Virus record (IMG/VR): IMGVR_UViG_3300013018_000010
Span: 1-33,488 of that record
Reading direction: 5' to 3' (one strand)
DNA from: a virus
DNA length: 33,488 nt
This document shows, one piece after another, positions 4,850 to 30,700 of this stretch. The position numbers and the translations under genes are program-made. Each line of letters opens with the position of its first letter. The first letter of the stretch is position 1. The notes below the pieces were generated by a model. That model saw nothing but the letters and a program-made list of their open reading frames with translations, searched no databases and had not been told where the DNA came from.

Positions 4850-4862
4850 AGGTGGTGAGTAA

Positions 4863-5435
4863 GTGACTACAGAGATTAAAGAAGGAACAACAGTTAAGCA
4901 TTTTTTAAGTCAAATAAACAGTATAGGAAAGAAAATAAATCAGGATTTTACTTTTTATCCCGAGACATCAATCTACCTAATAGAAGATATAAGCTTTCCC
5001 TGTATAACCTACAGGATAAAAGAGAGAAAGCCATATCAGGGCCATAAGCCTAGAAGAAAAGATAGCTACCCTGATAAAAATGATAAGGATAACACAGTGC
5101 TTAAATACTCTCAGATGTTTGCAGGAACAATAGAGTTTGCTATTTGGGGCAAAGACTATAAGACTGTCGATGATAAAAGAGAGTGGTTTGAGAAATTTAT
5201 GCTTAGGTATACAGATAAGTTTAGGGAAGAGGGGATGCTTGAGGTAATATTTCAAGAACAGCTTGAGGATAAGATAGTAGAGGTTAAAGACAACAACTTT
5301 ATAAAACAACCACTTCATTACTATTTTAGAAATGAGAGGGTTTTAGAATTACCAGTTGAAAATATCAGCTCTATTGACACAGCAATAAACGATAGTGTTG
5401 ATAATTATCAATATATAAAAGACAGAATAAAGTAA
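4863..5435 (+). CDS. Tail terminator / tail completion-like protein
   Basis: 190 aa from GTG 4863, with AAAGGTGGTGAG (4848-4859) upstream. No in-frame ATG exists near the N-terminus. The centre carries FAGTIEFAIWGKDYKT followed by a helix REWFEKFMLRYTDKFREEG and then a beta pair. This order (edge strand with an aromatic-rich IEF-WG segment, amphipathic helix, strands) is typical of tail terminator/completion proteins of SPO1-like myophages and of the gpU-like fold. Such proteins form a ring that ends tube and sheath growth and joins the tail to the head. Its place just before the main sheath gene agrees. The rare GTG start suggests modest expression. The fold assignment is inference from pattern and synteny. 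Confidence 0.6.
   Translation: MTTEIKEGTTVKHFLSQINSIGKKINQDFTFYPETSIYLIEDISFPCITYRIKERKPYQGHKPRRKDSYPDKNDKDNTVLKYSQMFAGTIEFAIWGKDYKTVDDKREWFEKFMLRYTDKFREEGMLEVIFQEQLEDKIVEVKDNNFIKQPLHYYFRNERVLELPVENISSIDTAINDSVDNYQYIKDRIK
5398..5411 (+). repeat. Perfect 14-bp palindrome upstream of the sheath gene
   Basis: TTGATAATTATCAA reads the same on both strands. It lies inside the last codons of the terminator-like gene, about 50 nt before the sheath start. It could be an operator-like site, but it is short and AT-rich, so chance is a real possibility. Confidence 0.4.
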
Positions 5436-5446
5436 TTAAAATTCAG

Positions 5447-5454
5447 TAAGGAGG
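5447..5454 (+). promoter_or_regulatory. Near-perfect ribosome binding site of the sheath gene
   Basis: TAAGGAGG lies 6 nt before ATG 5461. It is one of the two best matches to the 16S rRNA anti-Shine-Dalgarno in the window, as expected for a protein needed in hundreds of copies. Confidence 0.85.
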
Positions 5455-5460
5455 AATAAA

Positions 5461-11847: not shown

Positions 11848-14800
11848 ATGGCTGCAAACAGATACATAGAGAGGTATAAAAAAGGCCTCCAGCAAAGAGA
11901 AGAAAAAAGACAGTCTAAAATGGCCTGGTCTAAAACAAATAAATTTCTAACAGGTGCAGCCGCAATTACAGCAGGTGCATTTGCAGCCCACACACTTCAC
12001 CCCAAAGGTATAATAGGAGCTTTAGAGAGTGTAGCAAAGCCCACAAATGCTGCCTTTGGAGCCTTCAAAAGCACAATGGATAGATATGTGTCAGGTTCCG
12101 GGCACGGAGTTTTAAAGGGTGTTGATACAGCTATAAACGCTGTTGATGTATTTAATAATCCAAAGGGTGCAGTAGACCATTTTAGAAGTACATATAAAAG
12201 TATTGCAAAAAGAACAGACGACTTACATATAGATATTTTAAGAAAACAGAAAACAAATGTTATTGACGGAATTAAAAAGGCATTAAAAAGAGATGCTATC
12301 AGCACTCAGGCAAATAAGAATTTAAATAAATTTATCGAAGATAATGAAGGCGACTTAGCCAAAATAGCCTCTGATTTTCAGAAAAAAAACCAGTACAGAC
12401 TTTCAAAGCTAAGTTCTGGCGATAAAAAAGAAGTTAACTATGCACTTGCAAAATTAGACTCATTTAATGAAGCTAATAAAGAAATTAGAGATAGTGCACA
12501 AAAAATGATATTTGACAGTATATCAGGGGCTTCAGAGGCCAGACCAAAGAATGTAGAGAATATTCAGGCAGATGCCTTAAAGAAAATGATGGATGAGATT
12601 GTAGAAAACCAGCAGTCCCAGAGTTCATTTATAAAGAAAAAGTTTAATAATATTTTTGGATACAAAAACGCAACGGTGGATGACCTTTTAAATTATGGTG
12701 ACGACTTTTTAGATGATGAGAGCAGAAAGTTTTTAAACACTTTAAAGATAAACCACGGTGCTGACTTTAAAAAGTTTGTAGTAGATGACAGCCTATACAT
12801 GTACAAAGGTAAGGTTGTTGATTCCAGAAACTTCAAAAAGCTTGGCAGAAATATTCGCTCAGGATTTTCTGGTGGTATTTTAGGTCACTTAACTTACCAG
12901 AGAGACTTAATGGCCATGAATGATTTCTCTAAGAGAGCTGGAACACTGATTCGTTCAGGCTACAATGTACCAACACTTGAAGGCTATGGAGTTTTAGGAA
13001 AAGACGGAGTTTTAAAAGAGTCATTAATTTCTGTTGGAGATAACATATACAGACTAAATGATATGTCAAAACCTCTGGCTGAAGGCTTCCACCTAGCTTC
13101 AGGAAGGTACGGCTCTACTAAGAGATTAGTGTCAAGTATGTCTGGAGTTAACGCTCCTGACTGGAGTAATGAAAGGACATACAATTGGCTTTTAGATGTA
13201 GGGGGCAAGAGACAGCCGGGGCTTTTAACAAAGTTTAAATCTATTTTTACAAAATCTAAAGACCCACTATATTTCAAAAATGAAATGAACAGGCTCTTTA
13301 CAGTAACAGAAGATATGGCTCAAAAAATACAGTCCGGCACAGCATCATCTGTTCTACCTGAAATAGATTACAGAATGATGAAAGACCTAGAACAGTATAT
13401 GAGACATCAATCATCAGGCTTTGGTCATGAGATGTTAGAAAAGGTCCTTCGTGATTTAGATGGTACAGAAATCAGCTCAAAACTAAAGGGATTAAAATTT
13501 GATACAGAAGATGACCTTGTTGAATCATATATTAAAGTTACAAAAGAGCATCTAGGTAAACAAGGCGCTAAGATGCCAGATGATACATCTCTTAGGGCAA
13601 GGGCTTATAATATTCTTAATACATCAACTCAGAGAAAAAATAAAAGAATATTTGCCGGAAACAAACTGAACGAAGGTAAAGACAGGCTCTTAAGAGATAT
13701 CTCAGAGAAGGTAACTAATCTAAGGGGTAGTGACAGAACCCTAGAGATTGCAGAATCAATGTATAAAAATAAGGAGATATCAGGGGCCCAATTTGTTGAA
13801 ATAAATAAATCAGTTGCAAGCTTTAAAATAAGCGGTTCTATGGACGGCTCATCATTTGATGGAGCTGAAATCACTAAGATTCTAGCAGGCAAGAAAGACC
13901 CTTATGTAAGGCTTGCTATTGAAGATTCACTAAAAGAAACACACCCTGCTTTTGGCTTCGGAAGGGTTAAGGAATTCCAAGAAAACTTCCACGGAGATGT
14001 ACTTCCGGTAAAGAAGTTCAACCCTAAGATTTTAAACGACTGGAAGTCAGTTATAACCGGCGGTCGCAATGACATGTCCAAAGTTAATAAGGGAACCCTT
14101 TTAACTTACGGTATGATGCACAGACTAAATGATATGGTAAGGCATTTTGATTTTATGCCTCTTGCTATGTCAGATGACAGTATGGGCTCACCTTTATCAA
14201 CATTTGGCAACATTATGGCTAAAAGAGTTATGCCGATTTACGCTGGTGTTACAGCCTTAAAATATACAAGCGATTACTGGTCTGAAATATCAGGTAGTGG
14301 ATACACACTAGAACAGCACAAAGAAAGAGCAAAGGCAAATGCAACCTTAAGACTATCAAAGTTTAAAGATGCAACAGGCCTTACAAGTGCTTTCAAATTT
14401 TTTGATAGGGTAACTCCGGGAAATGAAGGTATAAAGGCAAGTGTTAATAAGCTTCCTTTCATTGGACCTTTAGCTCCTTTAACAATAGGTATGGAAGCCC
14501 TAAATTCTGTCGGAACATTCAGCGGCAGAACTGAAAAAGAGTGGGTAGATTACTTCAATACAGGAGAGGACCCGGTCAGAAAGGGTAGGTACTGGATATT
14601 AGGTTCAACCCCCTGGATGGGTGAAAGTATAGACCACTACGAACCAAATAGCTATAGACAGGCTATGAGTCAGTGGGAATATACAGATACGGTTTACGGC
14701 TCAAGAGAAAATTACTGGGCTCACAGCTGGATGCCTACTCCAACAGAACCTCTTGCACCAGTTAAACGCTTCGTGACGGACAGGTACTGGTTTGAAAAGA

Positions 14801-17673
14801 TGCACTTAAAAGACAGACCATACCCTCTAACAGGAGAAATGTTTGACCCTAATACACCATGGGGCACACTCTTAAACCCAACAATAGGCAGGATATTAAA
14901 ACCACAATTTAAACTGTCTGCAGGCGCAACAGATGAAGACTTAGAAAGAATAGAGAAAAATAATGCTTATGCCAAAGATGTAATAGCCAGATTCTCAGGT
15001 GGAGATTTACAGCTTTCAACCTATATACCTAAATACACAATGTCAACAAATGTTGGCGTTGCCACAGGTGGAGGAAGAATAGGTTCGGGTAATGTCATGG
15101 TAAATGGTGTTGCAGGCAATAAGGCAAATGCAAATGCAGTTGGTGTTCAAGGTGGTGGTCCGGGAGGTTCAGGAGCTGCTATTAGGCTTACTGAAAACCC
15201 TGAAAGAAGTGGTCTTGTAGTAAACGGCCAGAACTACTCACTAAAAGATTTAAAGAATATAAACCAATCAATTATAGATAAATCAGGTAAGATAAGCAGG
15301 ATAAACAAAAAGAGCATTTTAAATACAGGATTTACAATGTCATATTACGAGCCGAGAGAAGAGGGCGAACTTGCTTTAGATGTGCAAAGCCCAACTGATA
15401 TCGGCTACAGTATGGAAAGAACATTAGACATCTTCAAGGATATCACAGGTGCAAGAGGATTCTTAGCTTCTATGGTAACTGGAGGAGACGATTACGGTGA
15501 AGGTCAGGCTGTTTTAGCGACAGCATCTGATGCTTACGCTGCCTCATCAAGGTTCTGGGATACAGGGCTTGGTGGCCGTGGTGGAGAGCTTTCAGAGATT
15601 TTCAGAAGATTTATCAACAAAAGACCGGGATTATACAAGGTAATAAACGACATACCAAATACAATGCCCGGCTGGATGCCTGATAGGTTCCGCACTGGAG
15701 ACCCTTATACAGAAGTAAACCGCGGCGAAATAAGGCTCCCAGGAGAAGCTTACGAGTCAATGAATAAGCTCCACCCAGATGAGTATGGAAGGTATGGAGC
15801 AGTTGATAGAGCAGCCATCTTAGCTGATATAGCACCATATTCACAGGAATATAAGCTCTGGTCTAAAATAGCTTCAGAACAGAATCTCTCACAGGAGGCC
15901 AAAGAGTTCTTAGCTCAGGCTAAGGAACAAAAAGAAGAGGCAAATAAGAAATATCATATAACACCATATAAGTTTTTGGGTCAGGATATAGAGAGAGAAT
16001 CAGCTGTTGTAGAAAAGTTTTTAGATTCCAGCCGCTTTACGGTTAAAGGTTCAGACAGAATATACCGCCTTGCAGGTGTTAATACCAACTTCAATGCAGA
16101 GACCGAAGAGGGCAAAAACACCCTAAACATATTAGAACAGACAATGATGCCTGGAAGCGAAATAACACTTCTAGCATCAAAAGACAGCAACCCCAACGCC
16201 TCAACTCCAGCCGTTGTCTACAGTCAGGACTCAAATGTAAATAGAAGGCTTTTAGACAGCGGAGTTCAGGCCAAAGAAGAAGATGGGGCTATTGATACTT
16301 ATGTAAACTTAGGCGTAGGAGGAAGGGCTTTAGGAAGGATATGGGAAGGAGTAGCACACGCCCCAATCCCTATAGTCCATAATAAATTCTTCAATGTACG
16401 CTCACCTATGGAACACTACAAAGACTATCAAGTTTACGGCAAAGAATGGCAGTCATGGAACGAGCCAGTTGACGACCTTTTAGTACCGTCATTCCAGAGT
16501 GCCTGGGCCAGAAATCCTTTCTGGGCTACATTATCTGGTGCTACAGCAGGAGCTATAACAGGACTTCTGCTTGGAGGTCCCGGAGTTAGAAAGGCAATGA
16601 GTGGCTTCGGTGCGGTAGCTGCAGGTGTCGGTTCTATTGCTCGCTCACAGTACGAGTTGGAGACGGGTAAGGCGTGGATACCGGAAAGAAGAGAAGAAGA
16701 AAGAAAGATATGGGAATACTACGACCTCTTAAAGTTTGTTAAAAATAAGAGGCTATATAATAAATATGTAGACGTAGCTAAAAAAGAAGAAAATGTTGAT
16801 GTTGAAAAGATAATAAGTGAAATGGAAGAGATTGACGAAAGGCTAAAAAAGAAAGAAGAAATGCTTGAAGGCTTTTCAAAACACTTACTAAGATACGGCA
16901 TCAGTAAAGAAGACACTGTCCAAAAACGAATAAACTCAGAGGGTAGGGTCGAATACAATTTAGTCACAGAAAAAGAGTTTATAGAATCAAAAAGAAAAGA
17001 AATACTTCAAGAATTAAGGGATACAAAAGCAGAAGAAGTACTTGTTGGCTTAGGCCCTTATGCAAGAATGGCGGTTAAATACAGACAGGAATACCGCTCT
17101 ACACTATTTGGACTTGATGGAAGTTCAACTTTCCAGCAGATGTTTTCTGCTTTTCCAAGTAAGGATAGGGAATATTTACAGCATTTCTCTAAGGTTACAG
17201 ACGAAAAGGAAAGAGAAGAAATACTAAAAATTGTTCCTGACAACCAGAAGAGAGCTTACAAAATTCTATGGGGTATGGAAACAGAAAAAGAATCTCTAAT
17301 AGATATGTTCGGAGAGTATGCACTGCCAGATGAAAATTGGTTTGGCTGGAGGGAAGAGGCAGACCTTGAAGATTCAATGATAAAACTCATTGAAAATAAT
17401 GGTTATGACCCTAAAGATTTCGGACTCTGGAAGGATTACACTGTAGAGGAAGAGCTAACACCAGCTCCAGTTGAGTATGGTAGGCGTTTCGACAGAAAGT
17501 CATCCGGATTTATCAGAACAAGATTAGAAGAAGTATTAACAGATTATGATATCAGAGATGTGGATATTAAAATAACTCCAAGAGAAGATAACAGTATAAA
17601 TATAAATTTCGATATGGTACAGGATGTAACAGGAAAAATACAGCTTGAAATACAGAGAGCACTGGGGGGCTAG
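11848..17673 (+). CDS. Giant tail protein 1 (tape-measure position) with degenerate SNase-like domain
   Basis: 1941 aa, ATG 11848, ribosome site AGAGGTG. Visible parts: a basic N-terminus, then an Ala/Gly-rich hydrophobic helix (33-50); a long helical region to about 800; an aromatic-rich segment (about 905-1020) with RYWILGSTPWMGE, DRPYPLTG (989-) and TIGRILKP (1012-); a Gly/Asn-rich linker (1070-1113); a block with GDPYTEVNRGEIRLPGEAYE (1284-) and ILADIAPYS (1324-); an SNase-like domain (1390-1475); a second hydrophobic Gly/Ala segment (1558-1604); charged helices (1612-1690); and a beta-plus-helix C-terminus. The SNase-like part has YRLAGVN and VVYSQDSNVNRRLLDSGVQ but lacks the catalytic Glu and second Arg, so it is probably inactive. 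The position after the chaperones is that of the tape measure, though it is not simply a long coiled coil. I cannot name the family. Confidence 0.85.
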   Translation: MAANRYIERYKKGLQQREEKRQSKMAWSKTNKFLTGAAAITAGAFAAHTLHPKGIIGALESVAKPTNAAFGAFKSTMDRYVSGSGHGVLKGVDTAINAVDVFNNPKGAVDHFRSTYKSIAKRTDDLHIDILRKQKTNVIDGIKKALKRDAISTQANKNLNKFIEDNEGDLAKIASDFQKKNQYRLSKLSSGDKKEVNYALAKLDSFNEANKEIRDSAQKMIFDSISGASEARPKNVENIQADALKKMMDEIVENQQSQSSFIKKKFNNIFGYKNATVDDLLNYGDDFLDDESRKFLNTLKINHGADFKKFVVDDSLYMYKGKVVDSRNFKKLGRNIRSGFSGGILGHLTYQRDLMAMNDFSKRAGTLIRSGYNVPTLEGYGVLGKDGVLKESLISVGDNIYRLNDMSKPLAEGFHLASGRYGSTKRLVSSMSGVNAPDWSNERTYNWLLDVGGKRQPGLLTKFKSIFTKSKDPLYFKNEMNRLFTVTEDMAQKIQSGTASSVLPEIDYRMMKDLEQYMRHQSSGFGHEMLEKVLRDLDGTEISSKLKGLKFDTEDDLVESYIKVTKEHLGKQGAKMPDDTSLRARAYNILNTSTQRKNKRIFAGNKLNEGKDRLLRDISEKVTNLRGSDRTLEIAESMYKNKEISGAQFVEINKSVASFKISGSMDGSSFDGAEITKILAGKKDPYVRLAIEDSLKETHPAFGFGRVKEFQENFHGDVLPVKKFNPKILNDWKSVITGGRNDMSKVNKGTLLTYGMMHRLNDMVRHFDFMPLAMSDDSMGSPLSTFGNIMAKRVMPIYAGVTALKYTSDYWSEISGSGYTLEQHKERAKANATLRLSKFKDATGLTSAFKFFDRVTPGNEGIKASVNKLPFIGPLAPLTIGMEALNSVGTFSGRTEKEWVDYFNTGEDPVRKGRYWILGSTPWMGESIDHYEPNSYRQAMSQWEYTDTVYGSRENYWAHSWMPTPTEPLAPVKRFVTDRYWFEKMHLKDRPYPLTGEMFDPNTPWGTLLNPTIGRILKPQFKLSAGATDEDLERIEKNNAYAKDVIARFSGGDLQLSTYIPKYTMSTNVGVATGGGRIGSGNVMVNGVAGNKANANAVGVQGGGPGGSGAAIRLTENPERSGLVVNGQNYSLKDLKNINQSIIDKSGKISRINKKSILNTGFTMSYYEPREEGELALDVQSPTDIGYSMERTLDIFKDITGARGFLASMVTGGDDYGEGQAVLATASDAYAASSRFWDTGLGGRGGELSEIFRRFINKRPGLYKVINDIPNTMPGWMPDRFRTGDPYTEVNRGEIRLPGEAYESMNKLHPDEYGRYGAVDRAAILADIAPYSQEYKLWSKIASEQNLSQEAKEFLAQAKEQKEEANKKYHITPYKFLGQDIERESAVVEKFLDSSRFTVKGSDRIYRLAGVNTNFNAETEEGKNTLNILEQTMMPGSEITLLASKDSNPNASTPAVVYSQDSNVNRRLLDSGVQAKEEDGAIDTYVNLGVGGRALGRIWEGVAHAPIPIVHNKFFNVRSPMEHYKDYQVYGKEWQSWNEPVDDLLVPSFQSAWARNPFWATLSGATAGAITGLLLGGPGVRKAMSGFGAVAAGVGSIARSQYELETGKAWIPERREEERKIWEYYDLLKFVKNKRLYNKYVDVAKKEENVDVEKIISEMEEIDERLKKKEEMLEGFSKHLLRYGISKEDTVQKRINSEGRVEYNLVTEKEFIESKRKEILQELRDTKAEEVLVGLGPYARMAVKYRQEYRSTLFGLDGSSTFQQMFSAFPSKDREYLQHFSKVTDEKEREEILKIVPDNQKRAYKILWGMETEKESLIDMFGEYALPDENWFGWREEADLEDSMIKLIENNGYDPKDFGLWKDYTVEEELTPAPVEYGRRFDRKSSGFIRTRLEEVLTDYDIRDVDIKITPREDNSININFDMVQDVTGKIQLEIQRALGG

Positions 17674-17676
17674 TAA

Positions 17677-20600
17677 ATGTACGATTTTGATAACATGCCG
17701 GCAGTCTCGTCGGATTACAAAGAAGAAATGTATAATAAATACGGTTTAAAGGTTACAAATAGGGTCTCTGACCCTCAGCCTTCCTTTCTCTTTCAAGTAA
17801 GCAGTCAAAGAAAGGCTAAGGCAAAGCTTGATAAAGCTGCCAATAAAGCCGTTCAGTATTCGCACAACTTTGAAGAGATAAATGCAATATATAATGACCT
17901 TGGTAAAATAAAAAATGCAATGACAGAAAATGGTGTTAAAAGAGGAACCCTTGATATTTTCAAGGATGTAAATGCAGTAACTTACGGCAGGAATCCACAT
18001 AAAGCTATTAGAAACTGGCAGAAGGCCATCAACACAAATTCAAAAATAATTGGTTTCGATATAGAGAGTTTAGGAGATATGAATGAAGGTAATATTTTTA
18101 CACCGACAGAAATCTCCTTCTACTCTGCCACAATGAACGGTGATGAGCTTTCTAAAAGAGCCTTAGAGCGTTCATTTATTGTAGCACCAAATAGAGCTTC
18201 TGTTGATAATATCAACGAGCTATTTGATAAAGTACAGGCTTTTTACGAAAACGGCAGAACTCCAATGCTCAGCGACTCCGAAAGAAGGACTCTCGGAGAT
18301 TTAATCAAATACTCAAACGGTGCAGAGTTTGTACAGAAAAATTCTATGACAGAACTAGGAAAAGCTTCTAATATGTACAAACAGTTTGTTACTGATGGAG
18401 GTCAGCTTAAAAGATTAAGCTCTGCAAGTTCAGGTAAAAAGATGCTGGCCCTAGCAAGAGAGGGTTTGGGCAACTTACAAAAATATGGTAAAGATGCAAG
18501 TAGTGTAGCTCAAAACTTAAGCTACTATCTTGCCGAACAGAATGCAAATTCAAATGCCTTCTTTATGGGTCACAATATAGAAAATTTTGATAATATAGGC
18601 CTGACAAAATTCATGCAGGCTAACGGCTTTGATAACGGATTTAAACCAAAACAGTATATAGATACACTGGATTTAGCAAACGCCTTTTATTCCACACCGC
18701 TTGACCTGCAGAAATTAAGCAGTGTAGATACAGGGCAGTTAACAAGACTTAACTCAGGTCATTTAAAAATGGAGAACCTGACCAAAGTTATGGGTTTTGG
18801 AAACTATACTCACTCAGCAGCTGATGATACAAGAAAAGCTTTTAACGTAGTCTCAAACTTATTTTTCAGCCAAGAGGGCCTCGACCACATAAATAAAAAC
18901 ATCTTATCTAGTGGTGGAGATTTTTCAAAGAACTTTAATATAAGCTCCCTAAAACCCGGAGACGAGCTGTTTTCTACAGCAGGGGCAATGGATACAGGTA
19001 AAGGTCCATTGAGTTTTGTTACGGCATTCAATGACGGCAAAGAAGTAGTAGATGGAAGCAAATTTTACATAAGTTCACACACAAAATACAGATTTGTAGG
19101 AAGTTTTAGGAATAAAGACTCGGTCGGAGTTAAGCTGCAGAATGCTATGACAGGGGAAAATGTCTATGTCAATAAGTCAAACGAGAAGGAATTAAGACAG
19201 TTTATCTATTCCAAATTTGACAATGCTGCAAAGTATTCAAATACCGATATGCAGAGAATGTATATGAATACCAGAAACGATATCGCTCGTTCTAAGTTCA
19301 GACAGATGACAAACAATATCAGCTTTAAAAACTACAAAAACTTACAGGCAACATTAAAGGCCTATAACTTAGAAAAAGCACAGGGAAGAAGTCTTTTAAA
19401 TAACGAACTTGATGAAATATTCTCATATACAGATAAAAGCGGCTCTAAAATTATAAGGGGCAACTGGAAAGAAAACTACAGAAGAATGAGGGGCAGACTT
19501 ACAAGTGATGCTCCTATACTAGACAAGCTTGTTAAGGAAGTAGAAGCACTGCATGGTGGAGATAAAGAAAACCCAAACTACTGGCCGGTGCAAAAAAGAC
19601 ACGCAGCAGTTGTAAATGCCTATCAGGAAATGCAAAAAGATTTTGGAAAAAATAAAGATATTATAAACCTTAAAAGCAACAAGGCTTACGGAATAGACCT
19701 TCTGGGGCCAGATGGTAGAAACACAAGAATCTCACTTGCGAGAAAATCAAATGCAAGACGTGACTTAAGAAGACTATTCAACTATACAGAGTCAACAGCA
19801 GGAAGAAACTTCAAAACAGCTGACGGATTTTTTATTGAAGTTTTAGACAGCGTAAAAGACCATGCAAGTCAGTACCAGAAGAATATGGCCAACAAAGATT
19901 ATGAGGGCTTTATGTACAGGCTTGACGAAATTATAAGACCTATGGCTAAAAGTCAGGACAATGCCTTCACCCAGATAAATGCACTTTCAGACCTACTGGT
20001 TGATTATAGAGATAAAATACCGGGACTTAAAAAAAGCGTGATGGAAGTTGAGGGACTTGGAGCAAGAAATGCTTTCACAACCCAAAAGATGATGGATAAT
20101 GTGGATACATATTTAAGAAAAGGTTTAGACTATGCTAGTGGAATAACCATCAATCACGGCTTTGCTAAGGGTCTTTCAGGTGGAGCTAACAACAGTGTTT
20201 TAACTACTGTAAGGGCTTTAGATGAAGCTTTGCAGAAAAACTATATGGCACTTGGAGTTAAAAAAGAATTCGTTTCAAATATACCTACAATGGAAAACTC
20301 GCTAAATAGCACCATACGCAAATTTGGGACAGCGTTCTCAAGCAAAGGAGATATCGACTTAGGCTTTGAGCTCTTCAACACAGGTACGGTAGAAAAGCCG
20401 CAGGTATCAATGGCTATTTTCAAGCAGGGCTCAGATGATGTGCTCACACTTGATGCATTAAAAGCAAATAAAAATGCTGCTATAATAGATATACCTCTGG
20501 TTAATGCAGACCAGTATATTCATTACGGAAACCAGAAAAAAATATCACCACTTGCACTCCTTTATAGGGATAAATTCAGTGCAGGAGCCGATATAAAAAC

Positions 20601-23600
20601 AGGAACCTCTTTCAGCTACATGATGCATGAGCTTAACGGAGAGGCCAACAGTATGATTAAGGCAGCTCAGGAAGGCGACTTTAGAAGAATAGAAATGATA
20701 GCAAACGGTAAGATACAAAAATCTTTAGGCTATCTCTCGGGCTCAAACAAGTATGTAAGAGACGCAGAGAAGATGTATTCTTCAACAGCAGAAGCCGACT
20801 TTCTTAAAAAAGGATATGTACTATTTAGAGGTGTCTTTGAAAATCAAGGCGAACAGGTAGGGCTTGATGGTGAAACATTGTACCCATCTAAAAAGTTTAA
20901 CATGTTTGCTGATGGCTCAGTTCAAAAAATGATTAAAAATAAATTAGGAATTGATGCATCCTTAGAATCGACAAGAGGTGCACACGCAGTAAATCAGTTC
21001 TTTTTAAGCTCAATCGAAAACAGAAATTTTGTTAACTTCGGGATGTACAACTCTCCCGGTCGTGACAACATGATACAGATGAGAAATAAAAGAACACTTT
21101 CTAAAAAGGCTATAGAGTCAATACAGGACAATATAAATAAAGCTAAGGGTTATTCAGGACTCTCTATTGACCCCTTACTTATCACACAGTCCGAACAGTT
21201 TTTAAGAGATACTGATAATGCTTTTGCTAAATATCCAGGCGTTAATGTCAGCATAGCAAATGTTGATGAGCTTGAGGGAATAGAGAAGCTAAAAAATGCC
21301 TTTGATAAAAGCGACAAATATACTATGGAAGGTGTTTTTGGTAAATCTCCAGCTAACTTCCCTTCTTTCTGGGAAAACCAGGCTATTGTATCTCAAAGTT
21401 TTGCAGACTCGCTACATTCAGTAAACTCATATACAAAAGACTACAAGCTGTCTGATTTAGATGAAGGCTTTATTAATAAAGTTAAACGTTCACTTAAAGA
21501 TGGCGGCTCAGGTTACAGAATGGGTTACATGGAGCAGATGGGTCCTGACGAGATATTTAAAAGGGTATCCAGAAAAGATGGGGTTGAACACTTCATTACA
21601 GGATTCAACATCAATGACGGCAAGATAAGCTTCAAGTTCGAAGAGAACTTCAGCACAAGGGCTGGGGTAACCAAACTATTTTTGGCTTCAGAGAAGGTTA
21701 CTGTCAGAAATATTGTGCCTGATGAAATTATGAAGGCAGCATTCGGCGAAGGCGTTCATGTTGCAGGTAATATAAACCACGCAGGACATCAGGGTTATGG
21801 AGAAGTAGCAGAGGGCTTAATCAAAGAGTCGATAAATAAAATAAACCATTCAAATATAGATAGACAAATCAAACAGGAAGCTATACAGGAAGTTCAGGAT
21901 ATTGTAGATAGAACCTTTGGTCTGGCAACAACAATCAAAGAAGAGGGCAAAACAGGTAGCGGTAAGTTTAGACTTGTAATCAACAACAACAAAGCCGGAT
22001 TCAAGCACCTGATGGTAGCCGAAGGAGGAATAGACCAGGCAAATCTAGGTCTTAAAAATATTGACCCAAGAGTTGCCAACGTAGTTAGAAACAAAGGGGC
22101 CTTAAGTATCAAAGATTTAAGAACTAACTTAAACAACATAAAATCCTTCAACCTAGGATTAAAAGATAATATCTTAAACCTAGAGGCAGTCTTAGCTCAA
22201 AACAGTGAAGACATAAACTTCATGTCAGTCGGAGGCTACGGCAAAAAAGGCGTAAAAGTAGGTCCAAGACATATCGGAGTCATGATGGACAAGGGTTACA
22301 CAGAATACGCCAGATGGCTAAAAGACTCAGTTTTAGAAGAAGCAAAACAGGCAAACAGGATTTCATCACTACCTGGAACAAGAGGCTTAAATGGAGCACT
22401 TGAAGGCCAATCAATAGCTATGGAACTGCTTGCAAGAGCAGCTCGAGGTGAAGGTGCAGTACCAGATGGTTCCAGAATAAATGAATACACAGAAGTTCTA
22501 GAAGAGTTAAGCGAATTAAGAGAAGGTGGAACTCAGGGGCAGGAAAAAGGCCTTTTCTCTAAATCGGATTTAACAAAGACAGTTTTTGACCCCGAATACA
22601 GAAGAAGAGGGAAAAACGGCCTTTATATTTCACTGCCAGAAGAACTTGAGATAGAGTTTGGAAACGAAAAAACAGGAAGAACAAGGGTTAAATTAAACGA
22701 AATATTCCTTTCAGATACGGCAATTGAGATGTCCAAGAAAAAAAATGGAGAAGCCCTTTACTCTTTAGGAGAAATAGGTAGTGCAGAATCAGACATCTTT
22801 AATGCGATGAGGGAATATAATACAGCAGTCCAAAACTCCTCGCAACTTGCTGGAGACCTTTCAGCAAGGGAGGCTAAAGAAAAAGCTTTAAGAAGTATGA
22901 AAACAGGTATCAAAAATTACTATAACGCAATCTTCCATCAGTCTACAAGCTCTCACGGGCAAAAATATAACAGGGCATTATCGGCAAGGTTTAAAGGCTC
23001 GGGAAGGCTTAACCTGCAGATTATGTCTCCAGCTCTAGAAATTGCAGATGAGGTTAATAGAGCAAGCGGCACTACAGAAGAGAAAATATCAAAGGTAGCA
23101 AGAAAATTTGATATAGATGAAAAAGTAATAAAAAAAGCATATGCAGGGGTAAAGGGTGCTGGCTACAAAGGCCTTGACAAATCTAATGCTATTTATATCA
23201 GTCGAGATAGAGCAAAAGACATGCTTAAAGGTTTGGAAAAAACAGACAAAAAACAGTTTGACAATATAATGTCAGGACTTGAAGAAGGTAAAGGAATGCC
23301 TGGAATGATGTTCCGCTCACCTGTAATCCATACAGAGTCAGCAATGCCTGTTGAATACAGAATAGATGATGAGCTTGATTATGATACTGTTAGAATATCA
23401 TCAACAATGGCAGCTGCTCAATTTGGTGATTCTGATGGTGACGGGGTATCTTTTGTAATGGCCTATAATAAACAAGGTGTCAGAACAAATGCCAAAAAAA
23501 TGGAAGAAGAAGTAGCCAGAGTTGCTGATGAAATGAGAAACACTTCATACAACTCAAAAGGGCCATGGGTTAAAAGGAATATGGTGGCCCTAGAAAAAGA

Positions 23601-24741
23601 TGTAACTTTAGGTAAGAAGAATTATGTAGATTCAGTATTTGAAACAATAGAATCAAATTCAGACTTTAAGGGCAAACTTGATGTCTGGGATACAAGGCAA
23701 ATGACAAAATCAGAGCTTGAAAATTATGCAACAAGGCTTTCTAAAGCTAAACTTACAAATGCAACTTATACAGGTATGATTAATAACCTGACAGATGAAA
23801 TCAAAAGACTTGGTAAGGGTTATGCAACATCCGACAAAGAGCTTGTTAATTTTGCTTCTGGGCTTGGATTAATCACTCAGGAAGCTGTATCGGGTAAACA
23901 CTCAATGACTAAAAAGTCCGGCTCATCAGTATCAACAGACCAGATTATAAAATGGGTTAGAGAAGGTAAGTTCAGCAACTTTGAAGGCATGATGGACCTA
24001 TCACCAGAAGAGATACAGGCGATGAATGATGTCCACTTTAGAATGAGAAAAGATGCAAATAATCCGCTTGAAAATGTGGCAAACAAGATATTTTTAAGTG
24101 AGAAAGTTGCAAGAGAAGTTAACGTTGCAGATTATTCCATGATAAAAGATACAATGGTAGATAGTTTAGAAAAAGAAATGGCAAGTGTTTATACAACTGG
24201 CCCGGGCAGAAATATCTACAAGGGCAATCAAAACTTATCAAAAAATGCTGGTCATATAGCTGAAAACGGAATCAACTATACAGGCAATGCAGCTTCGGAA
24301 TTTTTAAAGGTAGCAAATACCAAAACTGCAGCAATTATGTCATCAGAAGTAGCACAGCATAAGGCTTTCGGTCCTATGGCGGCCGCAGGATTAGCTATAG
24401 GTGGAGCTATAATGGGTGCTGGAGCTGCAATGAGCACACAGCCTCTACCTATGGACTACATGAATAATCCGGCAATGAATGCCGTTTCTGGTGCAGGCTC
24501 AAGACAGCCCATGATGGATATGAACAGCATCCAGAATATAGTAAATAATCAGGGTATGGATATCATAATTAATGGAAACACAACAATAGATAAAGATGTA
24601 AACGAATTGGCAGGAGTTGTATCACAAAGCGTAGGTTCTGCAATGAATATACCGGTTAACATAAATGTCAACGCCAGTGATAATCGAGGTTCAATAAACC
24701 AAAGCTGGATAGAAGATAGAATTCTTGCTGCACTTGAATAG
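17677..24741 (+). CDS. Giant tail protein 2: DEDDh exonuclease domain plus RNA-polymerase-like DxDGD barrel
   Basis: 2354 aa, ATG 17677, 3 nt after the upstream stop; its ribosome site GGGGGG lies in the end of that gene. Residues about 118-400 form a DnaQ-like 3'-5' exonuclease: Exo I FDIES (D128, E130) with PTEISFYS behind it, Exo II GHNIENFD (D305), IDTLDLANAF, and Exo III HSAADD (H379, D384). Residues about 1870-1935 carry FRSPVIH (R1880), then QFGDSDGDGVSFVMAY (D1918, D1920, D1922). The layout matches RNAP beta' (NRAPTLH ... NADFDGD, about 35 residues apart) and single-chain phage RNAPs. A Lys/Arg-rich strand region (R1328, K1333, K1340) might be the beta-like barrel, and LITQEAVSGKHS (2065-2076) a later polymerase element; both are tentative. 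A hydrophobic Gly/Ala helix lies at 2234-2257. It is probably carried in the tail and delivered to the cell. Confidence 0.85.
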   Translation: MYDFDNMPAVSSDYKEEMYNKYGLKVTNRVSDPQPSFLFQVSSQRKAKAKLDKAANKAVQYSHNFEEINAIYNDLGKIKNAMTENGVKRGTLDIFKDVNAVTYGRNPHKAIRNWQKAINTNSKIIGFDIESLGDMNEGNIFTPTEISFYSATMNGDELSKRALERSFIVAPNRASVDNINELFDKVQAFYENGRTPMLSDSERRTLGDLIKYSNGAEFVQKNSMTELGKASNMYKQFVTDGGQLKRLSSASSGKKMLALAREGLGNLQKYGKDASSVAQNLSYYLAEQNANSNAFFMGHNIENFDNIGLTKFMQANGFDNGFKPKQYIDTLDLANAFYSTPLDLQKLSSVDTGQLTRLNSGHLKMENLTKVMGFGNYTHSAADDTRKAFNVVSNLFFSQEGLDHINKNILSSGGDFSKNFNISSLKPGDELFSTAGAMDTGKGPLSFVTAFNDGKEVVDGSKFYISSHTKYRFVGSFRNKDSVGVKLQNAMTGENVYVNKSNEKELRQFIYSKFDNAAKYSNTDMQRMYMNTRNDIARSKFRQMTNNISFKNYKNLQATLKAYNLEKAQGRSLLNNELDEIFSYTDKSGSKIIRGNWKENYRRMRGRLTSDAPILDKLVKEVEALHGGDKENPNYWPVQKRHAAVVNAYQEMQKDFGKNKDIINLKSNKAYGIDLLGPDGRNTRISLARKSNARRDLRRLFNYTESTAGRNFKTADGFFIEVLDSVKDHASQYQKNMANKDYEGFMYRLDEIIRPMAKSQDNAFTQINALSDLLVDYRDKIPGLKKSVMEVEGLGARNAFTTQKMMDNVDTYLRKGLDYASGITINHGFAKGLSGGANNSVLTTVRALDEALQKNYMALGVKKEFVSNIPTMENSLNSTIRKFGTAFSSKGDIDLGFELFNTGTVEKPQVSMAIFKQGSDDVLTLDALKANKNAAIIDIPLVNADQYIHYGNQKKISPLALLYRDKFSAGADIKTGTSFSYMMHELNGEANSMIKAAQEGDFRRIEMIANGKIQKSLGYLSGSNKYVRDAEKMYSSTAEADFLKKGYVLFRGVFENQGEQVGLDGETLYPSKKFNMFADGSVQKMIKNKLGIDASLESTRGAHAVNQFFLSSIENRNFVNFGMYNSPGRDNMIQMRNKRTLSKKAIESIQDNINKAKGYSGLSIDPLLITQSEQFLRDTDNAFAKYPGVNVSIANVDELEGIEKLKNAFDKSDKYTMEGVFGKSPANFPSFWENQAIVSQSFADSLHSVNSYTKDYKLSDLDEGFINKVKRSLKDGGSGYRMGYMEQMGPDEIFKRVSRKDGVEHFITGFNINDGKISFKFEENFSTRAGVTKLFLASEKVTVRNIVPDEIMKAAFGEGVHVAGNINHAGHQGYGEVAEGLIKESINKINHSNIDRQIKQEAIQEVQDIVDRTFGLATTIKEEGKTGSGKFRLVINNNKAGFKHLMVAEGGIDQANLGLKNIDPRVANVVRNKGALSIKDLRTNLNNIKSFNLGLKDNILNLEAVLAQNSEDINFMSVGGYGKKGVKVGPRHIGVMMDKGYTEYARWLKDSVLEEAKQANRISSLPGTRGLNGALEGQSIAMELLARAARGEGAVPDGSRINEYTEVLEELSELREGGTQGQEKGLFSKSDLTKTVFDPEYRRRGKNGLYISLPEELEIEFGNEKTGRTRVKLNEIFLSDTAIEMSKKKNGEALYSLGEIGSAESDIFNAMREYNTAVQNSSQLAGDLSAREAKEKALRSMKTGIKNYYNAIFHQSTSSHGQKYNRALSARFKGSGRLNLQIMSPALEIADEVNRASGTTEEKISKVARKFDIDEKVIKKAYAGVKGAGYKGLDKSNAIYISRDRAKDMLKGLEKTDKKQFDNIMSGLEEGKGMPGMMFRSPVIHTESAMPVEYRIDDELDYDTVRISSTMAAAQFGDSDGDGVSFVMAYNKQGVRTNAKKMEEEVARVADEMRNTSYNSKGPWVKRNMVALEKDVTLGKKNYVDSVFETIESNSDFKGKLDVWDTRQMTKSELENYATRLSKAKLTNATYTGMINNLTDEIKRLGKGYATSDKELVNFASGLGLITQEAVSGKHSMTKKSGSSVSTDQIIKWVREGKFSNFEGMMDLSPEEIQAMNDVHFRMRKDANNPLENVANKIFLSEKVAREVNVADYSMIKDTMVDSLEKEMASVYTTGPGRNIYKGNQNLSKNAGHIAENGINYTGNAASEFLKVANTKTAAIMSSEVAQHKAFGPMAAAGLAIGGAIMGAGAAMSTQPLPMDYMNNPAMNAVSGAGSRQPMMDMNSIQNIVNNQGMDIIINGNTTIDKDVNELAGVVSQSVGSAMNIPVNINVNASDNRGSINQSWIEDRILAALE

Positions 24742-24746
24742 GGGTG
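24739..24746 (+). promoter_or_regulatory. Ribosome site that sets the hub gene start at ATG 24753
   Basis: TAGGGGTG overlaps the stop of giant protein 2 and is followed by TTTTTT and ATG 24753. The in-frame GTG at 24744 is part of this site and is too close to it to serve as the start. Confidence 0.75.
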
Positions 24747-24752
24747 TTTTTT

Positions 24753-27700
24753 ATGGCAAAGTACAATTACGCAACAACTAAAAATATAATAATGAAAGAA
24801 AATCTTCAGTCAAAGCCTGTTAAAGCAAAAGTCGTAAGAGTTCAGGATGGTGACACTATATATGTTACCAGTTCAGACCCTATATTTAAGGGTACTGAAA
24901 AAGAATTTGACGGCACTTATTCAATAAGACTCTCGGGTGTTCAGGCTCCCGAGGGCACATCTTTCTGGGATATGGAAGATGATAAGTCTGGCTTAAGAGA
25001 TTATGATGATTATAGGTACACAGGTTATGAAGAAAAAGATGAGTTTTCTGAAGAGTCCTTTCTTTTTATGAAAGACCTACTTTTGGGTAAGGAAGTAATA
25101 CTTGATTTAAGGACTAAAGAAAACGGGAGCTTGATAACAGGAAGGTTTTCACGGCCGATAGCAATTATCTTTGCTAAAATGGGAGAAGAATATGTAAATG
25201 CCAACGTTTCTCTTTTAACAAACTCTCTCGGGACACCTTATTATGTTGAAGCTATGAACTTAAGTGACAGCGAGAAAAAAGAGTGGTCTAACCTATCTAT
25301 TATAGCAGATATGCTGAAGATGGAAGAAGAAACAGAAAAGATTGAAGAGGACTTAGATGAGTTTGTAGGTTCTTTTGACCCTGAAACAAACATCAAAATA
25401 GGTGACAGCATTCTTCCGATACCTCCTGAAGCTATTGTGGTAAACGACATAAATGAAGTCAATCCAACATCAGTCATTCGTGGTGGAAGCACTTTAATGT
25501 CCTCAACAGGCCACAGGCAAAAACAGGTACAGATGGAGTTTTATTTCGACAGCAACAAAAGAACAAAAGAACTTATAAAGGGAAGAACCTATGAAGGTGA
25601 CCAGATTAACGGCTTTCCTAAATTAGCTGCCGGTAAAAGCGCAGTTATCATGCAGGATGGAGAGGAATTTAGACCAGTATATTACATAAACGGATTGAGG
25701 CCTTTAATGGCCCAATTTAAATTGACACCTTTTTTACCTATAGAAAATGAATACCTAAACAAAACTCATGATATCTCAGCTTTAACACTTCAAAACCTAT
25801 CAATCAGTAATGTTGAGGGATTTCCGGGACTTGTTAAGGCTACATTAATAGCACTGGAGTTTAATCATGAAGCTTACATAAATATGGTTGGACCTTTTAA
25901 AGATGTCTTCGACTGGGGTTTATTTAGATTTTACTACCAGAGACTTATAGATGGTACCGGAATAAAGCATAGGGGTACAAAACTACCCTTTTACCAGAGA
26001 GACGGAGAGGATTTTTCCTTCTTTACAGTAGATAGCTGGTCCTTACAGAAAAGAGAAAACCTTGAAGCTTCACTGGAAGATGTCTTAAGAGAATACCAGA
26101 TAGACCTTGAAGAAGGCAGTACAGAATACGAAAAGCTAGTCTTTGAATATGAGGTGTTTACAGAAGCTCTGGAACAGTATGAACTTTTTAATGAGCTAAA
26201 GGGAAGTTATAACCTTAATAATGAGGATTCAAAAAAAGAGCTTTACCTAGAATACATAAGAAAAATTGCTGACAAACAGGAAAGAAGAAATGACAGCTTC
26301 AACGATGGGCTCTATTATGAGCCTAATATCCACAACGAGCTTGATTTCTTGGAAAATGGAAGACTTAGCCGCTACGATAATCTAATTGAAGACCTTGTTA
26401 AAATTGAAGGCTATGATGGTGACTATTTCGATATAGCTTTAAGAAGCGAGAAAAATAAAGAATTTTTAATCAACTACTTAAAGCAAAAAGAAGAAGATAA
26501 TTTAATACCAACAGAACTCGATTTAGTTAAGTCAACTGAAAAAGAAATCGAGAGGATAAAAGAGGCTAATTCTTTTAATATTAAAATCTCAAGAGACAGC
26601 TTTTTATATATAAAAGACAGAGTAATAGCCGGTGGTAAAGACCTCTTAAAAGAAAGAGAAGAAGCTGTATCTATGACCGACAATCAGATGGATGATTACG
26701 AGTGGAACAAACATTATTACAGCGACCTTCATTTAAACCAAATAAATGTATCGATGTCAAACGGCGTAAATACCGTAAAGTTAAATATGCACACAAAACC
26801 AACTCATCAGTATTTAGGCTCAAAAGATATAGTTATTTCAACTAGCTTTGTCACAGATAACGAACATACATTAGAGAGCATTAACTTTCTTGCATCTCAT
26901 ACTAGTGCTATGGAGCTTAGATACAAAAAAGTTTTAGATAATCCGGTAATGAAAGTCCAAAACAATATAGTTGATATGTTTGGATTAGATGGTGCTTATA
27001 TTAAAAATATAGAGACAAATACTGTACCTTCTATGCCGGGATTATTCCAAATTGAGATTTCATTTTTCGGCTATATTGGTGCGCCAGGAGACAAAGACTC
27101 TCTATCACTTCAGTACCGTTCGGAGCTTGGTGTCGACGGAAAAATGGGTCACGATAATTTAACAGACTATTTCAATATGAAAGAGAGACTTAAATACATC
27201 AACCTTTATCCGGACCTTGAGCTTCCTAGATATTCAGAGCTTCCATTAAGGCACGAACTATTTGATGCTAATGATGACAGCTTTGTAGACCCTGATTTTT
27301 ATGCTCTTGATGTGCCAAAAGTATTTTCAGAAGATGTAATCAGGGCTTTATATGATGAAGATGATGCAGTAATTATCGGTAGAGACACAGAGGGTAATGC
27401 TGTTAGAGCTTTAGTTGATGATAAAGGTAATATAAATTTAATTGACTCTAATATTCAAAGCGAATACAAAAGAGATTCCAAGCCAACACTTGCAGATATA
27501 GCATACGAAAAAGGAGATGTAGGCTACAATGAGTTAAGCGAGTTTATGGATAATAGAAGTTTGGATAGAAGCAACATGTCTTTTGTATCAGACAAAGAGC
27601 TTAAAAGCTACCTTGCCTCTGAAGATAAAATGGTAAGTAATGTTAAACATAAAAAAATAAAGATTAGTGACTTCTGGGAGTCATATGTTATTAAATGGCT

Positions 27701-30700
27701 TGATAGCACTGTTCAGAAAGATATTAGTGAAATAGAAAGAATAATTGCAGCAGGTTTTATTGTAGGAAACTGGGATAAGGACTACATAGATGATGACTAC
27801 CTGGAGTTTCCAAAGAAAAGCCTTTACAGAAACAGCAGTGGAGAATTGGTAGATGAACTATCTGAAGCTAGCTATTATGGTGTTTTAAATTTAAATGGAG
27901 ATAATTTAAACCAAGATGTTAAGAAAAAAATAGCTTCTAATTACAGGGCCAGTATACTAAAGTATGAGCTTGAATCTGGAAAAATATATGACATATTAAA
28001 AGAAAAATCTCCACAAATAAACTTTGACAGAATCGAAGGCACAGGTGTAAGCAATCTTTATGAGAACTATTCTAAAAGAGAAAGTGTTGACTATATGTTC
28101 AAGATGCTTTCATACTTTTTAGTTAAAGGCATCTCACTAAATGATATATCTAATTACGAAGGAGGTTATCCTGAGTCTGCAAATAATGTCAAGGAAGCAT
28201 ATTTAGAGTTTGAAAAATCAGCTAAAAATATTATAGGTTCTAAGGGTATTTATATAAATCCCACAGAAATGATTGATATGCTTCCTAATTTTGCGATGTT
28301 AATTAAAAAATCTCTAGAATCTATTAACGGAGATAATTTCGTATTAACCTCTGAAGGAACATACATGCAGTCAAGAAGAGAAGATGTTAGGTTTGCAAGC
28401 TCGTTCAACGACATGCTTGAGTATGACAGAAAAGGAAGGCTAATTAGAGCTTTTCCATCATATTACATGCTCCTGATTGATGAGGGTAGAGAGTTTATGT
28501 TCTGGAAAATGCAGGATTTATTCTACCACTACAATGGTGTACAGAGTATAGATGTTGTCAGAGATAAGAAGAACATATCAGATACATGTATGATTACAAT
28601 GTCAAACTCAAAGGGCAGATTATCAGATGCTTCTGGTGGTTACAGAAATAAATACTATCAGGAAAAAGGAGTAATGGAGACTTTATGGTCTTTAACACCT
28701 TTTGCTGAATTTGAGTGGGAAAAAGCTAAGAGAAACTCAGAGTTTGAAAGCGTACAGCTTGCAACAGGTGCCAGGCTTCATTTAAGAATGGGCTATGGTT
28801 CAACACCAGATAAGCTTCCAACTGTATTCAACGGAACTATAACAGAGCTTCAGCTTGGTGATACTATAACCTTTGTAGCTCAAAATGACGGCATAGAGTT
28901 AAACAAACCAATACCAGCATCTCCCAACGAAAAGACTGATTTTGACATACTTGGACAGCTAGATGAACCAAGAACTATAATCAGCAAGATAATAGGAGAT
29001 AGAGGCAACTTATGGTCTAGGTTTATGAATAACATTTCAGGTAACTTACTCTATAATGAGAGTGCTTACGGAATACAGCATTTTGGAGAGCCCAAAAGGC
29101 CTGAGTGGTGGGATGAGAGTCAGTATTTAACAAAAAGACATCCAATAACTGATATATATATAAATCAAAACTCAAGGTCTAGCGACAAGATGGAAAGAGC
29201 AGTCAGGGATGAAGAAAGAACTTATGAGGTTACACAGAACATAAACTCATCTCTTTATGAAAACAAAGACTTCTCTATGTATCTCTATGGTAAGACAGTA
29301 TGGGATGTTTTGGAAACATGTGCTCTTGTAGCACCTAACTATATAGCAGCAGTCCACCCATTTGCTTTTAGAAATACAATCTTTTTTGGCCACCCAAACT
29401 TTGATTTGGCTTATGACTATGAAGCTGAAATGGATGAAAAGGGCAACTATATCAGGGAAGAATCTAAAGAGGAAGAAGTTGAGCTTTCGTTTACAGGTAA
29501 CGGAACTAGAAAAACCTTTGAACTAAGAATGAATATAATTGAAGGAAGTCTTGAAGTTAGGGATGGAGACAAAAAAATAACAGATAATATCGACAAGATT
29601 GACCATAGATTAGGTCGTGTTATTTTCAGTATCCCTCCAAAAGACGATGTAAAAAATGTAATTTTTACCTTCAAAACCTTGGTTCGAGGAAAGATAGAGC
29701 CGTTAAATGTTAGAGAAAAGTTAAAATCTTACAGGCAGAACCATTTCTATTCAAGCTATTATGACATAATAGCAAATAATATTAGAGCTACAGAAAAGAA
29801 TATGTACACAGCAGTTAAGCCTGTCCTTTCAAAAGACGGAAGCTATAAAGAGCTTGATGAGATGTTTGTAGACACAGATATTTTTCCTGATAGACAGAGG
29901 TTAAAAAAGATAGATACTTCAATACCAACCCCTGATTTTGTCAAGAAATTTACAAACACCTTTCAGGTTACACCAGAAAACGCTGAGATAAATGCAAGAA
30001 GGTATGGGGCTGGAGCCTTAAAACAGGCAGTAGAGAATATGTACGACGGAGAGATAGTAGTTACAGGAGACCCTTCTGTTAAACCATATGATTATGGATA
30101 CCTAGCAGATGTAAGAGATAGAATTTCAGGAACCTTTGAAGTCTCATCAGTTGTCCACAGCTTAAATGATACAACTGGTTTTGTAACATCAATCAATCCA
30201 TCACCGGTAGTTTCTGTAAATGAGGGCCTTCAATACGACAAGGATTTTTGGAAGTGGACAAACTCCAAGTTCTCAAGTCTTTATGCTAACAGTGTTGTAG
30301 CAAGGCTTTCGACATACACAGCTTTAGCAAGCCTGAAAAGCGTTCTAGAATCACTAAAGATAACAAGTGCAGCTGGCTCACTTCTCCCGGCAACAAATGC
30401 CGGTATGGCAGCTACTAAATACCTTGACGTAACAACAGACGCTTTAAAGCATTCAAATCTTGGTTACCTTCCATTTCTTTTAGGAAAAAATGTTTTAGAA
30501 AGAATAAAGGACCTCGGAACAAAAACAGATAAGTTTGTTATTTGGGTTTCAAGATTTTTAGATAATGCAAATAAAATGAGCGACATATCCAAGCTTGGTG
30601 GAAAAGGGCTTAAGAACGTAGACTATTTGAGGAAGATGATGATTTCAGGTAAGTTTTCCAGCAGGGCACAAAAGATAAGTGACGGATTAAATGATTTCAG

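Follow-up and report, generated by a model that had tools for sequence, protein, structure and literature searches.

An open reading frame (ORF) in the tail operon of a contractile-tailed phage probably encodes a virion-borne, injected early RNA polymerase (RNAP), a DNA-dependent single-chain enzyme of the two-barrel type with an N-terminal DEDDh 3'-5' exonuclease. The ORF belongs to IMG/VR virus record IMGVR_UViG_3300013018_000010, whose 33,488 bases we call the window; its product, P0002, is called the window protein. Computation supports the presence of both halves of the polymerase core, the predicted metal triad with its upstream R-x-P, the exonuclease residues and the recurrence of the gene directly before the baseplate hub gene across a broad range of large contractile-tailed phages. 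Packing into the virion, catalytic activity and early-gene transcription are what we infer for the window protein. The initial annotation had proposed a two-barrel RNAP core in a giant tail-operon protein of a contractile-tailed phage, and this proposal is supported by matches of the family profile to beta' and by the predicted folds of both halves. The features predicted within the ORF are listed below. A5 denotes an alignment of the window protein with proteins from 27 loci (28 rows), all picked after the motif had been seen; duplicates and Bacillus phage KLEB27-3 were omitted.

17677..24741, + strand: predicted exonuclease and single-chain two-barrel RNA polymerase (ORF, 2354 amino acids)
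18043..18846, + strand: predicted DEDDh exonuclease domain, residues ~123-390 (D128, E130, D305, H379, D384; alignment and profile)
20287..22218, + strand: predicted RNAP beta-like half, residues 871-1514, with barrel A within 1111-1512 (VIA-align)
21670..21696, + strand: K1332 to K1340, candidate basic pair of barrel A (alignment)
23278..23481, + strand: predicted RNAP beta'-like barrel B, residues ~1868-1935 (hmmsearch of PDB sequences and Foldseek)
23314..23331, + strand: R1880-S-P-V-I-H1885, with R and P in 28/28 A5 rows
23428..23442, + strand: D1918-S-D1920-G-D1922, predicted metal triad, with three D in 27/28 A5 rows
23773..23898, + strand: G2033...Q2068-x-x-V-x-x-K2074, conserved block that follows the triad, candidate for bridge helix / trigger loop
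24376..24462, + strand: hydrophobic glycine-rich helix near the C-terminus, residues ~2234-2262 (Kyte-Doolittle)

Motif pair and predicted active site

The translation of 23284-23481 (+ strand), EGKGMPGMMFRSPVIHTESAMPVEYRIDDELDYDTVRISSTMAAAQFGDSDGDGVSFVMAYNKQGV, lies within the ORF and reads ...FRSPVIH...FGDSDGDGVSF.... R1880, P1882, D1918, D1920 and D1922 stand where they had been placed, D1918 being 38 residues past R1880. The pattern R-x-P-x-x-H-(25..45)-D-x-D-G-D is found once across all six reading frames of the window, and 20,000 shuffles of the protein's residues gave 0 occurrences; a looser R-x-P...DxDxD appeared in 198 of these shuffles. The pair of R-x-P and DxDGD is above chance; DxDGD by itself is not. 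We take R1880-S-P-V-I-H1885 to correspond to RAPTLH of beta', with R1880 as the counterpart of R425 and the triad as that of D460/D462/D464. Hits to P0002 in IMG/VR comprised two near-identical loci only. A 203.6 kb IMG/VR contig (L007) codes for the identical 2354-residue product, and a 55.7 kb IMG/VR contig (L008) carries a copy with 4 residue differences, including G1923R directly after the triad.

The aspartates might instead form a calcium-binding, EF-hand-like loop or reflect a chance match, as DSDGDG is like the start of an EF-hand and DxDGD alone arose in 865 of 20,000 shuffles. However, the glycine beside the triad is present only in the window among 27 aligned rows, the near-identical L008 has arginine in its place, and position 12 of such a loop is non-acidic in the window. 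The R-x-P partner, the profiles and the fold also argue against both readings. With a non-conserved glycine next to the triad and with the outcome of the shuffles, profiles and folds, we rejected calcium loop and chance match alike and regard their probability as negligible.

Other candidate elements of the predicted core are conserved to differing degrees. The one A5 row in which the triad falls into an alignment gap, L049, yet contains DFDGD. Within the beta-like barrel, a basic pair K-x(6,7)-[KR] (spaced 7-8) was found in 24/28 A5 rows, L065 being one column off; in the window, K1332/K1340 presumably resembles K1065/K1073 of E. coli beta (spacing 8). In the candidate bridge helix / trigger loop block, for which model confidence is low, G2033 is kept in 26/28 and K2074 in 27/28 A5 rows, and by eye the block is like the VGxI...EIDxAKTG region of YonO-type proteins. 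The helix at residues ~2234-2262 is the protein's only 19-residue segment over 1.5 on the Kyte-Doolittle scale.

Conservation in the gene before the hub

Fifty loci were collected through similarity of the hub, not through the motif; Acinetobacter phage ME3 reappears among them as L050, and 14 of 16 further hub-fetched loci were omitted as being on contigs already in the set. In the long gene preceding the hub, R-x-P...DxDxD is present in 35 of the 50 loci and the family profile matches in 36, with DxDxD in 36/36 profile-positive loci. The profile-matching ORFs number 37, of which 33 are distinct in sequence, the gene of L014 being in two pieces. As a side observation, the same polymerase gene that is divided in L014 (1417-8693) runs as an uninterrupted frame in L015 (1419-8693). 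No RNAP profile match was obtained in 14/50 loci (L023, L027, L028, L029, L033, L035, L036, L039, L040, L043, L046, L047, L086 and L087), and in several of these the upstream gene is absent or cut by the locus end. Among them, L029/L046 have DTDGD without R-x-P, L043 has DNDGD in a cut ORF, and L087 shows a weak match to the exonuclease profile (5.5e-4).

KLEB27-3 gp34 and ME3_36 were found via P0002/P0003 similarity (P0003 being the hub protein of the window) and gene order, not via the motif; their motifs are RYPTIN...KADYDGD and REPAQ...GDHDQD, respectively. By tblastn, P0002 matches KLEB27-3 gp34 over residues 89-314 only (27% identity), and the relative L011 shares 25% identity with gp34 over 90% of its length. 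In tblastn searches of the phage collection, ME3_36 found only ME3 itself and part of L038 found nothing. L088, which was in no profile, is matched by the RNAP profile at 5.8e-34 and by the exonuclease profile at 5.9e-44 and contains GERFPLIH...GDMDGD. This phage relative carrying an exonuclease-polymerase gene is DUOT01000172.1, a contig binned as an Acholeplasmataceae metagenome-assembled genome.

In the first alignment (27 proteins), every row has R1880, P1882, the triad aspartates and G2033; 26 of the 27 had been picked after the motif was seen, so this invariance is not an independent count. The fold could also descend from a polymerase that is no longer catalytic, its present function being structural or the gating of DNA in the tail. 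Divergence is fast (identity to the window protein 12-27% within A5), triads vary (DHDQD in ME3, DNDSD in L018) and a few members have an altered basic pair, all of which is in line with such a loss. The aspartates and R-x-P are nevertheless retained, in rows chosen by motif, while nearly all else diverges, and DxDxD is kept in every profile-positive locus of the hub-based set; we consider loss of catalysis improbable.

Similarity to RNA polymerases in sequence and predicted fold

A search of 177,635 PDB sequences with the A5 RNAP profile (hmmsearch) yielded 38 matches at E <= 10, of which the first 33 are RNAP largest-subunit chains. These 33, which include beta', PHIKZ055 and vaccinia rpo147, fall over the motif region, PHIKZ055 being the best (E 0.003), and in three PDB alignments that we inspected R1880/P1882 align with the R-x-P of PHIKZ055 and bacterial beta'. 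Individual A5 members also match polymerase families at E <= 0.1: phrog_2987 ('RNA polymerase beta subunit') is matched by 6/28, the best at 9.9e-7, and PF00623 by 3/28, the best at 0.0014. Over seven whole records, PF00623 was matched in two (under the curated cut-off) and phrog_2987 in three, all five matches being on this gene's motif. KLEB27-3 gp34 is matched by phrog_2987 at 1e-7; ME3, Moorella phage MTATph1 and the 203.6 kb contig have no match to this family. PF05183 (YonO / QDE-1) did not match the window protein at E <= 1.

Two AlphaFold2 models cover the halves of the core: model 1 spans residues 1120-2300 (mean predicted local distance difference test score, pLDDT, 55.5; 376 residues at >= 70) and model 2 residues 520-1560 (mean pLDDT 62.7). 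The Foldseek search with model 1 reached E <= 0.001 for 297 PDB matches; the best 50 of these are all RNA polymerase entries, with low template modelling (TM) scores; the non-virion RNAP (nvRNAP) of AR9 leads the matches listed (6.3e-7). VIA-align placed residues 1120-1513 of this model on PhiKZ nvRNAP 7ogp_C (Z 14.1, 279 residues) and on E. coli RNAP chains (residues 669-1244, Z 13.9). Residues 871-1514 of model 2 were aligned with residues 33-1243 of E. coli RNAP chains (Z ~15, 388-450 residues, root mean square deviation 7.3-9.6 Å), a span that is nearly the whole length of an RNAP beta chain, and its core, residues 1111-1512, with PhiKZ nvRNAP 8que_C (Z 16.2, 281 residues, 4.3 Å). To judge from chain letter and numbering, the aligned PhiKZ and E. 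coli chains are beta. Of the 50 Foldseek matches listed for model 2, 49 are RNA polymerase entries and the other is Mediator. In these models, a single chain seems to hold both core halves, the beta-like ahead of the beta'-like one. The absence of a barrel or of conserved aspartates, which had been named beforehand as speaking against a polymerase, was not what fold prediction and alignments returned.

Among predicted viral proteins (BFVD), model 1 matched a 'minor tail protein' (7.9e-20), an unnamed protein (1.7e-18) and an ME3 'uncharacterized protein' (3.4e-9), with many RNAP subunits ranking below the ME3 protein. The best of these viral fold matches is A0A8S5SD80, the 'minor tail protein' of Siphoviridae sp. 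ctnpt50. QDE-1, P23-45 and phi14:2 are absent among the 50 PDB matches listed per fold search, which is no evidence against kinship.

Predicted N-terminal exonuclease

The predicted catalytic residues of the exonuclease are D128-x-E130, D305 and H379....D384, to which N300 may be added. They are invariant in 14/14 rows of alignment A7, whose 14 members were mostly picked because DxE was visible by pattern; in the 27-row first alignment, D128 is kept in 19, E130 in 18, D305 in 22, H379 in 24 and D384 in 24 rows. Searched against the PDB, the exonuclease family profile matched exonucleases, with a best E of 7.1e-9 over profile positions 232-353, followed by DinG, ExoI, TREX1 and RNase T. The domain has its catalytic residues in common with such DEDDh exonucleases (the depositors' exodeoxyribonuclease III, DinG, ExoI, TREX1, RNase T) but differs from them in its large insertions and its fusion to a polymerase. 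The exonuclease profile matches 24 of the 36 loci positive for the RNAP profile, and in 9 of the remaining 12 the ORF runs off the locus start.

Limits of the assignment

Several observations weigh against an exonuclease-polymerase. Taken alone, the window protein has no polymerase family match in PHROGs or Pfam, and its exonuclease part has none in Pfam, an RNase H-like family being matched in only 1/14 N-termini. Most of the PDB profile matches lie at E 0.05-0.12 and are individually non-significant. Comparisons by hhalign with YonO-type (PF05183-type) enzymes of relatives (E 0.011, probability 3.7%) and with P23-45 gp96 (E 0.024, probability 2.0%) are in register but weak. Mean confidence is low for both models, as are the TM scores, and model 2 has no Foldseek match at E 0.001, the best being 0.0085. 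The invariance of the motif columns in A5 is partly due to the choice of rows. The basic pair K1332/K1340 of the window is spaced 7, and the alignment shows no such pair in L009, L049, L050 and L051. Six loci, five of them distinct (L023, L027, L029/L046, L039, L087), have a long pre-hub gene with no RNAP profile match, and L049, L050 and L051 (ME3 type) have complete ORFs with no match to the exonuclease profile. Moorella phage MTATph1 retains the exonuclease, and no RNAP was found: DxDGD is absent from the + strand of its locus, and neither PF05183 nor phrog_2987, models that often miss this RNAP family, matches the record. In MTATph1 (L005:15513-22869), after a lone exonuclease part come a transposase gene and its helper, which by eye look IS21-like, and a separate gene resembling the C-terminal tail.

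Tail-gene neighbourhood

The genes around the ORF include the following:

3335..8109, + strand: tail sheath genes 3335-4849 and 5461-8109, separated by a virion protein gene (phrog_279 6.8e-12, phrog_16991 1.3e-112, phrog_20284 1.8e-18)
11848..17673, + strand: upstream long tail protein, 1941 amino acids (P0004), positional equivalent of ME3_35
24744..31919, + strand: baseplate hub family protein, 2391 amino acids (P0003), similar to the KLEB27-3 'putative baseplate protein' and the ME3 'baseplate hub protein'

The two sheath genes mark the tail as contractile. Upstream of the ORF, three proteins match phrog_9206 ('major head protein') where KLEB27-3 annotates tail tube proteins, and downstream of the hub gene 32995-33375 has a baseplate protein match. 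PHROG 20474, labelled 'endolysin', matches P0003 at 1.5e-174; the ME3 and KLEB27-3 relatives are annotated as baseplate hub and baseplate protein. The adjacent small genes 10818-11189 and 11204-11836 are related, both matching phrog_29362, and the pair resembles the tail chaperonin of Bacillus phage 0305phi8-36, which is described as made up of two genes (orfs 143/144). The gene order of the window is like that of KLEB27-3, ME3 and MTATph1, and notes in the ME3 record link its gene order to 0305phi8-36.

Lying between the long tail protein and the hub, the ORF occupies the slot of the assigned tape measure of 0305phi8-36, orf146, an assignment that rested mainly on a correlation with tail length (PMC2147016). 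To judge by position, 0305phi8-36 gp146 would be homologous to the window protein. The window protein might double as a tape measure with a fused polymerase, transcription being coupled to tail opening. P23-45 gp96 combines the two in this way, its RNAP being at the N-terminus of the tape measure (PMC10770324), and the hydrophobic helix near the C-terminus of the window protein would also suit this role. On the other hand, exonuclease and polymerase occupy much of the 2354 residues, the proteins of the slot range from 1603 to 3197 amino acids, and the gene at 11848-17673, directly after the chaperone-like pair, is an equally good candidate. We regard a double function as possible but rather unlikely.

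The gene could also merely be located among tail genes and encode a late polymerase outside the virion. The pre-hub slot is conserved across a broad range of phages, however, KLEB27-3 gp34 was deposited under the name 'structural protein', and Hardies et al. name orfs 143/144 as the sole genes close to the 0305phi8-36 tape measure genes that are not structure genes. A non-virion enzyme appears very unlikely on these grounds.

Proposed role as a virion polymerase

As a virion polymerase, the protein would be packed in the tail or baseplate and ejected through the tail with the DNA, its C-terminal hydrophobic helix may hold it at the membrane, and it would transcribe the first viral genes during DNA entry. 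Some relatives have a separate YonO-type enzyme, which would be synthesised after infection and may then take over. The exonuclease could work on the ends of nucleic acids where the DNA enters: it might trim or proofread the 3' ends of RNA, or it might degrade DNA or RNA of the host. For P23-45, Chaban et al. propose a pore-associated polymerase that transcribes the entering DNA (PMC10770324), and an arrangement of this kind would fit the window protein.

Relation to known systems

Polymerases within giant virion proteins are already known from P23-45, crAss-like and N4-related phages (PMC10770324). The initial annotation named crAss-like and phiKZ-like precedents; it missed P23-45 gp96 (PMC10770324, 2024), the N-terminal exonuclease and the beta-like half. 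Thermus phage P23-45 gp96 has a two-barrel RNAP in a giant tail protein, as here, with R-x-P and DxDGD aligning in register, and the phage has a second, separate RNAP, as does part of the present group. In gp96, the RNAP forms the N-terminus of a tape measure of 5,002 residues, which belongs to a long non-contractile tail; the main text of PMC10770324 does not contain the word exonuclease. The window protein, in contrast, carries an exonuclease ahead of the RNAP and belongs to a contractile-tailed phage with a separate long tail protein adjacent, and its similarity to gp96 is weak (E 0.024).

The virion RNAP of Cellulophaga phage phi14:2 and crAss-like phages is likewise a single chain that combines both barrels in a giant virion protein (PMC10770324) but comes from a different phage order than the window phage. 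We obtained a weak BFVD match (E 0.0056) to the phi14:2 'structural protein' S0A2C3_2, which may be the phi14:2 RNAP. The multisubunit RNAPs of PhiKZ and AR9 provide the best PDB sequence match (PHIKZ055) and the best PDB fold matches to the window family; they are split over several proteins, whereas the window has both halves in one ORF. YonO, 0305phi8-36 gp99 and other PF05183 enzymes are single chains, as is the window protein, and carry R-S-P...GADxDGD. Unlike the tail-block gene of the window, gp99 is not among the structure genes of 0305phi8-36 (PMC2147016).

In papers available without subscription and the main text of PMC10770324, we found no report of a virion polymerase in this group or of such an exonuclease-polymerase fusion, and the fusion would, if real, be new to this literature. 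The predicted polymerase lies in the tail block of many large contractile-tailed phages, including ME3, and, if real, would explain self-started transcription; named isolates are available for testing it. The finding also questions the tape measure assignment of 2007. We tentatively suggest, though with less than even confidence, that a tail-borne exonuclease-RNAP machine is shared by a whole lineage of large contractile-tailed phages, 0305phi8-36 among them, that gp146 is such a protein and that exonuclease and polymerase act jointly on incoming DNA or nascent RNA, which would tie nucleic-acid processing and transcription to the entry of the DNA.

Separate second polymerases

A separate PF05183 match is present elsewhere in 5/10 records searched, four of these being above the curated cut-off. 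The A6 profile, built from five PF05183-type proteins, matches 4/10 records: its own sources account for three of these, and the only new one is G011. In the 203.6 kb contig, PF05183, the A6 profile, PF00623 and phrog_2987 all failed to show a second RNAP; the last two also miss the contig's own P0002-type RNAP, which makes this a weak negative. PF00940, for T7-type RNAPs, matched none of 7 records and did not match the control either, so that absence is not shown. A pairing of virion and non-virion RNAP, as in P23-45 and PhiKZ, is plausible for part of the group.

Nuclease-like stretches in the flanking proteins

By eye, the structural proteins that flank the polymerase on either side each contain an unproven stretch with Staphylococcal-nuclease-like wording: VVRVQDGDTIYV...IRLSGVQAPE at 24825-24954 in P0003, and YRLAGVNT...VNRRLLDSGV at ~16000-16347 in P0004. 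The stretch in P0003 had no match in the PDB. A Staphylococcal-nuclease-like domain in the hub of BtI1 is mentioned by Hardies (2007).

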